Assembly: GCA_004173515.1 (NCBI GenBank) | Contig: SECN01000053.1 | Coordinates: forward strand, 1 to 64,000 | From: Myxococcaceae bacterium | Lineage (GTDB): Bacteria; Myxococcota; Myxococcia; Myxococcales; Myxococcaceae | Reading direction: 5' to 3' | DNA length: 64,000 nucleotides | Program-made: the position numbers and the translations under genes | Shown: in pieces, positions 35,120 through 51,365 of the stretch | Position numbering within the stretch: the stretch's first letter is position 1 | Layout: every line of letters starts with the position of its first letter | Notes under the pieces: model-generated | Database searches by the model: none | Told to the model about the DNA's origin: nothing | The model's input: the letters and a program-made list of their open reading frames with translations, nothing else

Positions 35120-35689
35120 CTAACGCACGCCGATGGGCGCGAGCTCCACGGGCGCCGGGGGCTGCACGGATTTGATCAGCGCGTCGAGCGTCTGGCGGAT
35201 GACGGGCGCGATGTCCTTGTCCACGCTGAGCGACTCCTCGTCCGTCTTGCGGCCGGACATCGGCACGGGGAGCAGCCCTTCGACGACGTCCGTGAAGGTG
35301 ATGGTGCGCAGCACCTCCATCAGCGACCCGTGCGCGTGCAGCGAGCGCGGCGAGGCGTTGATGAGCGCGGTGGGCTTGGAGGAGAACTCGCCGCTGCCCA
35401 CCGTCCAGTCGAGCGCGTTCTTCATCACGCCGGAGACGCCGTGCGCGTACTCGGGGCTGGAGATGAGCACCGCGTCGCACGCCTGGAGCGCCGCGCGGAA
35501 GGCCAGCACCCCGGGGGGCGCGACGCCGTTGTCCAGGTCGTCATGGTCCGGGTTGAAGGGCGGCACGTCCTCCAGCGCGTCGTAGAGCGTGATCTCCACG
35601 CCCGGCGGCGCCATCTTGATGGCGGCCCGGAGCAGCACCGTGTTGGAGGAGACCTTCCGGAGGCTTCCCGAAATGGCGAGGATCTTCAT
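35120..35689 (-). CDS. NADPH-dependent FMN reductase
   Basis: A 189-residue flavodoxin-like protein with the phosphate-binding loop GSLRKVSSN at the N-terminus and SPEYAHGVSGVMKNALDW, the flavin-contact motif of the family. It should reduce FMN or quinones with NADPH. It starts seven bases after the P450 stop, so it is probably the last gene of the lipodipeptide operon. Two jobs are possible: supplying reduced flavin or electrons to the pathway, or general quinone protection. I cannot choose between them. Confidence 0.87.
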   Translation of the reverse strand: MKILAISGSLRKVSSNTVLLRAAIKMAPPGVEITLYDALEDVPPFNPDHDDLDNGVAPPGVLAFRAALQACDAVLISSPEYAHGVSGVMKNALDWTVGSGEFSSKPTALINASPRSLHAHGSLMEVLRTITFTDVVEGLLPVPMSGRKTDEESLSVDKDIAPVIRQTLDALIKSVQPPAPVELAPIGVR

Positions 35690-35696
35690 GGCGTGC

Positions 35697-50200: not shown

Positions 50201-51365
50201 GCCCGTAGAACCCCAGCAGCAGGTCCTTCACCGGCCCGGAGGACAGGTAGTGCGCGGTAGTGGGGTGCTCACCGAAGCGCACCGCGTGGTCGAAGGAGAC
50301 GACGTTGACCACCGGCCCGGTGGCGCTGCCCTCGTGGCCCTTCAGGCGCAGGTCATGCTGCAACACCTCGCCCCGGTGCCGCTGGTGCACGAGCAACCGG
50401 CCCACCTGCGAGGACACCTGCTTCACCAGCGACTGGAGACTGGAGCCCGGGGGCACCGTCAGGCGCAGGGGCAGCTCGTTGGCCAGCATGCACGGCGTAG
50501 CGCGCGACGCGGCCGTCAGGCGGCTGGAGACGGGAAGGGCGAGCACCACGTCCTCCGCGCCCGTCATCCGGTGGAGGTAGGCCGCCGTCGCGGCGATGAC
50601 GATGACCGACCAGCGCGTCTGCTCCCGCCGGGCCGCCGAGCGCAGCGACTCCATGGCCTCCGGGGACAGGTGCGTGGTCCGGCGCAGCAGGCCCCGCGAG
50701 GCCAGGGACGCGGGCGTCGCCGTCAGGCGGGCCGGCTCCGGCGGGGAGGCGAACGCTTCGCGCCAGTAGCCTTCGTCGCGCCCCGCCTGCGGCGAGGCGG
50801 CGTAGCCAGCGTCCTCTTCCAGGAGCGTGGCCAGCGGCGCGAACGCGGGCAGCTCCGCCTCCGGCAGCCCCACGAGCGCGGAGTAGCGCTGGGCCACCCG
50901 GCGCCAGTAGAGCGTCTGGCCGAAGCCGTCCATCAGGATGTGGTGGTAGCGGACGTAGAAGAAGGACCGCTCCGGGCCCGCCTGGAACAGCGCGTGGTGG
51001 AAGAGGGGCGCCTGGCGCAGGTCCACCGGACGCGACAGGTCGGATCGCATCCATGACTCGGCGGCCTGTCGCGGGTCGGCGTCGCCGCTCACGTCCACCA
51101 CGTCCACGGCCACATTCTCAAGGGAGACAGGCACCTGCCAGGGGCCGTCCGCGTCCTCGATGAAACAAACCCGTAGGGTTTCGCTTTCCCAGACAGTCTC
51201 ACGGACCGCCTGCCTCAGAAGCGAGACATCCACCGGCCCATGGATCTCCAGATGGGCGCCACAGTTGTAGCGGGGATTGGCGGGGTCCAACTGCTGTGCA
51301 ACCCAGACACCGCGCTGCGCGGCCGTCAAAGGCCACCGAGACACAGACGTTTCCGTCCCTCTCAT
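44241..51365 (-). CDS. NRPS1: C-A-T-C-A(core)-MT, two modules
   Basis: A 2374-residue synthetase. Domains: condensation C1 (about 8-440, HHILMDG near 140), A1 (about 460-960, YTSGSTGRPKG near 610), carrier T1 (LGGDSML near 1005), C2 (HHVVLDG near 1213), the A2 core (YTSGSTGRPKG near 1678, A8 GHRIEPDEVE near 1945), and a SAM methyltransferase (DVGVGVG near 2067, NSVIQYFPGTDYL). The protein then stops without A9/A10. The A1 code reads DVWHMSLIDK, one change from the known Ser code. The A2 code reads DILQLGMVWK (Lys517 from NRPS2), close to Gly codes. C1 should attach the lipid to Ser. In corallorazine synthesis C2 is described as dehydrating Ser to dehydroalanine, and that may hold here. The start ATG at 51365 follows a GGGGGA site. 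Confidence 0.94.
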   Translation of the reverse strand: MRGTETSVSRWPLTAAQRGVWVAQQLDPANPRYNCGAHLEIHGPVDVSLLRQAVRETVWESETLRVCFIEDADGPWQVPVSLENVAVDVVDVSGDADPRQAAESWMRSDLSRPVDLRQAPLFHHALFQAGPERSFFYVRYHHILMDGFGQTLYWRRVAQRYSALVGLPEAELPAFAPLATLLEEDAGYAASPQAGRDEGYWREAFASPPEPARLTATPASLASRGLLRRTTHLSPEAMESLRSAARREQTRWSVIVIAATAAYLHRMTGAEDVVLALPVSSRLTAASRATPCMLANELPLRLTVPPGSSLQSLVKQVSSQVGRLLVHQRHRGEVLQHDLRLKGHEGSATGPVVNVVSFDHAVRFGEHPTTAHYLSSGPVKDLLLGFYGRSDGSELQLYLDANPELYGADDIAGHQRRFLSFLERFTRAESELPVDRLELLLDGERQHLLEGLNATRRPHDLSGSLHALIDAQIRRTPDAVAAAVAGASLTYRELGAKADRLAAHLRERGVRAGQHVGVFEERSLELVVGLLAILKAGAAYLPLDPELPRARLEFQVEDAGLRTVLTRASLAPRLKGLGVEALALDTLLPTLPEVTTAPPRTAGPEDAAYVIYTSGSTGRPKGVAVSHRGVVNRLLWMQDTYRLGLDDTVLQKTPFTFDVSVWEFFWPLIVGSRLFLAAPGGHKDPRYLARTIRDEAVTTLHFVPPMLDLFLAEPEAATATGLRRVMCSGEALRPETVRAFFETFPREAHGIGLHNLYGPTEASIDVTAWACSPEDASAGSIPIGRPVDNTAIYLLDRTGQPTPPGVPGELHIGGVQVALGYVNRPDLTRERFVPDPFSPEPGARMYRTGDLARHRPDGAIEFLGRMDHQVKLRGFRIELGEIESVLLAHPALEQAVVTPWERTRADRRLVAHVVVKPGLPAPTPRELTEYAAQRLPEYMVPAHLLVLDALPLSSNGKVDRKALPAPVLESTGPSEAPSTPHEVSLHAVWKEVLGREHLGLDDSFFALGGDSMLSIRVRAALEKQGLTFHVQDLFRHPTLRDLARHLHPLDGTGHRREHAAPFALLRDGDRARLPSGLEDAYPLSAMQAGMLFHAEFDDSTSVYRVVTSLHVGARFDEAALRDALRDTFRRHPALRSSFDLSTYSEPLQLVHPEVTVPLDVAGDWSDLDADAVRAALQAWMDQEKFRRFDPASPPLLAFTVHRRGAQSFQLSVVEHHVVLDGWSDGAMLEEIVTRYRARLAGEELWLPAVASRYRDFVAEERRAVANPESRRFWTELLRGAEPTPLPRRPTAQGEVRPPRHQPHEVALPPQLAERLRLRAVEAALPLKSLLAAAHVAVLRRVCGADEVVTGVVSNGRLEEEGGDEVIGVFLNTLPLRIDTRTGTLRDAAHAIFAHEREATPHRRYPFMQVQRDLGNALPLDSYVNFMDFRRQWKVTGPTGALILDGVGVAETNYPLAVNFLYDPVQGGLRLWLDCDMAALDADFCERLTGYYRRALEAVAATPHARFSDVTLVDAAERERVARWNATAMPYDRELTVHALIEHQARTAGDRVALVHRDVTVRYSELDARAGQLASLLHAKGVRRGGRVGVSLPRGPELVIALVAVMKAGAAYVPLDPGYPQNRLEFIASDAQLDALVTWPEDPTGLPARVVVHVDAAEAGARPATPWKSGADGQDAAYVLYTSGSTGRPKGTEVRHHNVVNFFLGMDTRIGCGADDVVLALTSMSFDISVLELLWPLTHGARVVIASEGLVNNLVRAPGSDDAEGRYAFAELCRRHGVTLTQSTPSFLAAVAAEPAALESLRGARAVLVGGEILPAGLVERVRARLPGVKLFNMYGPTETTVWSTVHEVDVEQDPRQGVIPIGRPIANTDVLVLDAALEPMPIGVAGELWIGGEGVSLGYLNRPELTGERFVPHPTRPGRMYRTGDRARWRADGVLEFLGRVDRQVKIRGHRIEPDEVEGVLSRHPQVASVAVVAVARANGSAELVAFVAPGQGLMDRGAEDAHVRRWGEVWEGAYTDPETGARGTDLDRDFSGWLSSYTGEPIDPAQMREWLSHTVERITALRPRTLVDVGVGVGLVLRHLAPHVERYLGLDVSPAALRTAAASLGSGPLPAHVTLVHGDAGHLSTLPGDAGHTVVINSVIQYFPGTDYLTRVLDEATRVAGTTGAVFVGDVRDLELLEAFHASVQLHKAPALMPARDLAAAVARQVTAERELCLAPSFFREHAARVQQPVRLELKRGHAVNELTCFRYDVTLGGAPQAPVTDTVDWDTVSGDTALETLLEAPRGAGVFAVTDIPNRRLVRPLALVRLLREAAPGQTAWDVERKLWDADEDTAVDPEDVVALAARHGRAVRLCPPASGRAGTFDAVFEAKEQTR

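Follow-up and report, generated by a model that had tools for sequence, protein, structure and literature searches.

Our analysis identified, at positions 35120-51365 of the window (the whole analyzed stretch of 64,000 nucleotides), what is very probably the complete eight-gene corallorazine (crz) cluster in a Corallococcus, as matched by gene family and gene order. This is an already described antibiotic system, linked to an RNA polymerase inhibitor, which becomes known here from a further Corallococcus, and not a new system. Its borders are fixed by natural empty sites and enclose eight genes, with a cytochrome P450 and an FMN reductase inside. These borders narrow two questions in print, namely the function of these two enzymes and the self-protection of the producer's RNA polymerase.

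Gene content and known relatives

The source genome comprises 10.2 Mb in 888 contigs. The eight genes, all on the minus strand and in head-to-tail order, run from 51365 down to 35120, and ORF and Pfam analyses detected them where the sequence-only reading had placed the cluster:

crz1, 44241..51365, minus strand: NRPS with C(starter)-A(Ser)-T-C(dehydrating)-A(Gly, N-terminal part)-nMT, predicted from Pfam/NCBIfam, PDB relatives of C1 and C2, and motifs
crz2, 42532..44244, minus strand: remaining, C-terminal section of the Gly-type A domain, including the A10 Lys (within NGKVDR), followed by T and thioester reductase
crz3, 40728..42545, minus strand: fatty acyl-AMP ligase (FAAL), by Pfam/NCBIfam, with FAALs as best solved relatives
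crz4, 39007..40731, minus strand: acyl-CoA dehydrogenase-like, by Pfam/NCBIfam
crz5, 37271..39007, minus strand: acyl-CoA dehydrogenase-like, by Pfam/NCBIfam
crz6, 36995..37255, minus strand: acyl carrier protein of 86 aa (PP-binding, 1.4e-14)
crz7, 35697..36926, minus strand: cytochrome P450, by Pfam, with CYP105-like and other proteins as nearest solved relatives
crz8, 35120..35689, minus strand: NADPH-dependent FMN reductase family, by Pfam and PDB relatives
crz insert, 35045..51669, no strand: extent deduced from other Corallococcus genomes in which the site is empty, and from junction sequences

In the window sequence all eight frames are open and the motifs checked are kept. At the seven junctions between crz1 and crz8, neighbouring genes overlap by no more than 14 bases and lie no more than 68 bases apart, so that this head-to-tail arrangement looks like a single operon. 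The crz1 and crz2 genes overlap by 4 bases (ATGA). The crz1 frame opens at 51431, and a start at 51365 gives 2374 aa (7125 nt including the stop); this putative start fits the published crz1 length of 7131 bp (PMC11342130), from which the window gene is two codons shorter.

The sequence-only reading had assigned the locus to the corallorazine type and proposed comparing gene and domain order with crz. That assignment agrees with the gene content and gene order, the domain order of the NRPS, the starter C1, the dehydrating C2, the A-domain codes, the split A2, the nMT and the reductase; to the earlier reading can be added the nMT embedded in A2, an A2 divided between two genes, and an ACP (36995-37255). 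Ser and Gly codes, FAALs and reductase domains are each common singly, and an unrelated acyl-dipeptide aldehyde cluster with Ser and Gly modules and a reductase could merely resemble crz. We find this hardly credible, since the published cluster shows the same eight genes in the same order, the same nMT within A2 and the same rare split of an A domain. The gene order is that of crz1-crz8 in the published account (PMC11342130), where the cluster of Corallococcus coralloides B035, another genome, is described with the same eight genes, domain layout, split A2, embedded nMT, CmodAA C2, starter C1, terminal reductase and Ser/Gly specificities, the window side of this comparison being derived from sequence. 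The B035 proteins named there include QAT85340.1, QAT85339.1 and QAT85337.1. The same source reports 146 related clusters, 147 in the family, among which the window cluster may already be included.

A crz2 search of the named genome collection returned 483 pattern matches; confirmation left 439, and the top 80 of these (79 loci) were kept. Among these best 80 of 439, three Corallococcus proteins were 90-96% identical and two Pseudomonas proteins 55-56%, the next full-length match being from Legionella (33%) and the others weaker or partial. C. sicarius (G009) encodes homologues of all eight genes, with 83-90% identity; C. llansteffanensis (G006) has crz1-6 on the stretch compared, and C. praedator (G008) has part of crz1 through part of crz5 on a short contig. 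Pseudomonas mandelii OWC5 and Pseudomonas sp. MWU13-2100 (L012, L013) carry eight homologues in the same order (44-64%), also with a split A2, but both have about 1.07 kb extra inside A2 relative to the window. A monooxygenase domain in A2 has been reported for Pseudomonas and Serratia clusters (PMC11342130). Among 145 genomes of the order, crz7 relatives of at least 88% identity occur only in the four crz carriers described below (other matches, 42-44%), and crz8 relatives of at least 76% only in these four and G011 (others, 46-55%).

Assembly line and predicted product

The first condensation domain, C1, has the C domains of CDA, ObiF1 and EntF as its nearest solved relatives by sequence. 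We take these to be of starter type, and C1 is predicted to be of the same kind. In the published work, C1 of B035 acylates Ser with a substitute acyl-CoA (PMC11342130).

The sequence-only reading had given the corallorazine cluster a dehydrating C domain, and C2 bears this out. A PDB sequence search gave McyA (2.4e-84) and AmbE (1.5e-69) as its nearest solved relatives, with a wide margin to PvdL (7.2e-44), which came next. C2 aligns over its full length with the CmodAA domains of McyA and AmbE (PDB 8jbr and 7r9x); the K/R...H helix motif is conserved in it, as are HHxxxDG, GRxE and RR. When tested against the [K/R]SVLLAAH-type helix, HHxxxDG, T, E, RR and Y, it showed the motifs KSLLAAAH and HHVVLDG, and it retains seven of the eight published CmodAA positions checked, at a constant offset (K1325, H1332, T1347, E1393, R1400, R1401 and Y1489). 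The eighth, E1365, has no match at its printed position in C2 of the window. A Glu common to McyA, AmbE and this C2 falls at the equivalent of 1356, and it is only a guess that the printed number has its digits swapped. On these sequence features C2 is of the dehydrating (CmodAA) kind. McyA serves another pathway than crz. AmbE likewise serves another pathway, as stated in PMC11342130.

The A-domain codes were read at the anchor motifs. For A1, the anchors FDVSVW, TTLH, VMCS and NLYGPTEASID give DVWHMSLID, so the code DVWHMSLIDK (Ser) proposed earlier is readable there. For A2, FDISVL, TLTQ, VLVG and NMYGPTETTVW give DILQLGMVW; the residues of the proposed Gly-like code DILQLGMVWK stand, but its final K lies off crz1, in NGKVDR on crz2, A2 being split. 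With anchors placed by PheA numbering and set against the consensus codes for Ser and Gly, A1 is predicted to be specific for Ser and A2 for Gly.

It should be noted that crz1 stops and crz2 restarts in another frame in all five relatives viewed (C. praedator, C. llansteffanensis, C. sicarius and the two Pseudomonas), and the split is therefore no sequencing error. In the B035 study, A1 activates Ser, and activation of Gly requires that the two parts of A2 be mixed; the authors know of no earlier experimental report of such a split domain (PMC11342130). Pfam/NCBIfam searches place a methyltransferase domain within A2 on crz1, suggesting that the second residue should be N-methylglycine rather than plain Gly.

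In the proposed route, Crz3 would activate the acyl chain as acyl-AMP, and the chain would be transferred to the ACP Crz6, with desaturation by Crz4 and Crz5, the order of these steps being putative. C1 would couple the chain to serine on module 1, and C2 would dehydrate the bound Ser to dehydroalanine and condense it with N-methylglycine, formed on module 2 by an A domain assembled from two polypeptides. The Crz2 reductase would then free the chain as an aldehyde, which could close on the acyl-amide NH to give a six-membered hemiaminal ring. The best matches of Crz3 are fatty acyl-AMP ligases, which would refine its published annotation as an acyl-CoA ligase.

The sequence-only reading had proposed an acyl-Ser-Gly-aldehyde or a derivative. 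Since Ser would become dehydroalanine on the assembly line and the second residue would be N-methylglycine, the product is better described as acyl-Dha-N-methylglycinal closed to a hemiaminal piperazine, as in the published structure (PMC11342130). Corallorazine is described there as a hemiaminal piperazine that contains dehydroalanine and N-methylglycine and bears a (2E,4Z)-iso-octa-2,4-dienoyl chain, and the B035 product inhibits RNA polymerase. The strain's product is expected to be corallorazine A or a close congener, a prediction that includes its acyl chain.

There is a modest chance that the main product of this crz-family cluster is another one, with a different acyl chain or a P450 oxidation. 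The published family is reported to vary chemically, and the published model, in the available part of the account, assigns the P450 and the FMN reductase no role (PMC11342130), so that any role of the two would be putative; the matches of the Crz7 P450 are intact, and acyl specificity is not readable from the sequence here. Against this alternative, the gene set and order are those of the producer, with no gene added or missing inside the insert, and A2 lacks the putative monooxygenase insert, seen as a gap relative to the two Pseudomonas.

The chromosomal site in Corallococcus

The site was surveyed in 16 Corallococcus genomes by comparing the left kinase gene, the right trypsin-like gene and the flanking DNA. 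The kinase gene was matched in 14 of the 16 (E<=1e-150) and the trypsin-like gene in all 16. Relative to the empty sites, homology of the left flank stops at 35044-35049 and that of the right flank resumes at 51670.

The crz cluster occupies the site in four genomes: the source genome (G000), G006, G008 and G009. It lies on one contig in G009 and was placed from both flanks on two contigs in G008; in G006 the locus is divided between two contigs, one with the right flank and crz1-6, the other with crz7, crz8 and the kinase gene. Four genomes (G001, G004, G007 and G010) have an empty site, with about 54-79 bases between the flanks. A 34.6-kb insert with the same flank ends was seen in full in G003 (C. 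coralloides DSM 2259; L119-L121) and G012 (L126-L128), and we infer it in G002, G005, G013 and G014 solely from an equal spacing of about 37 kb between the flank genes. In G003 this insert encodes a single open frame of 10.5 kaa. Its scanned ends (6634 of 10524 residues) begin with a FAAL-like region and also include C-A-T modules and a thioesterase; next to this giant NRPS frame lies a gene whose product has a CmlA-type hydroxylase domain. G015, whose site lies at a contig end, showed no crz2, crz7 or crz8 match of crz kind.

The remaining genome, G011, has crz8 alone at the site, as an open frame (L118 3264-3800) without crz1-7 and nearest to crz8 of G006 and G009. This remnant indicates that loss occurs in the genus, and the cluster could likewise be broken or silent in the strain studied here; we consider this very improbable, given its eight open frames and conserved motifs.

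Seven genomes (G000, G006, G008, G009, G010, G011 and G015) share RpoB/RpoC residues absent from the other eight compared. Because the four carriers and G011 all fall within this group, the simplest account is that crz was present in the ancestor of the seven genomes and was lost later; later entry would be the alternative. CA031B, CA040B and CA051B have been placed in Group B (PMC6306037).

Two observations concern the surroundings of the insert. The kinase gene to its left (31138-33345) has a well kept 5' part, and DNA homology is lost near 31700-32200 in most genomes compared. At 54711-56977, outside the insert and 3-5 kb past its right border, an aldo/keto reductase and a second P450 are encoded.

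Candidate routes to self-protection

No known resistance, efflux/transporter or regulator gene was found inside the crz insert (35045-51669). Target-site resistance was sought in 15 of the 16 genomes, G013 being left out as it gave no rpoB match. For RpoB, none of the 18 variable columns separates the four carriers from the eleven others, and in RpoC no column separates them either; the RpoC count of 380 variable columns is inflated by a break in the G000 frame near residue 975, beyond which it is misread. This break in the rpoC frame of the source genome (L100, G000:C868) most likely reflects misassembly of an essential gene and indicates that such errors occur in this genome.

A rather improbable reading is that the locus is a fixed exchange site for lipopeptide clusters, holding crz, the 34.6-kb FAAL-NRPS-thioesterase cluster or nothing, and that Crz8 protects its producer by reducing the reactive hemiaminal aldehyde; crz8 could therefore persist open and alone in G011 after the loss of crz1-7. 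Retention of crz8 in G011 as an immunity gene was rejected on dN/dS values of 0.75 against G009 and 0.47 against G006, the G009/G006 pair giving 0.22 (flank gene: 0.24, 0.43 and 0.32 for G011/G009, G011/G006 and G009/G006). Since its values exceed that of the G009/G006 pair, the evidence leans, on few changes, towards the G011 crz8 being a decaying remnant.
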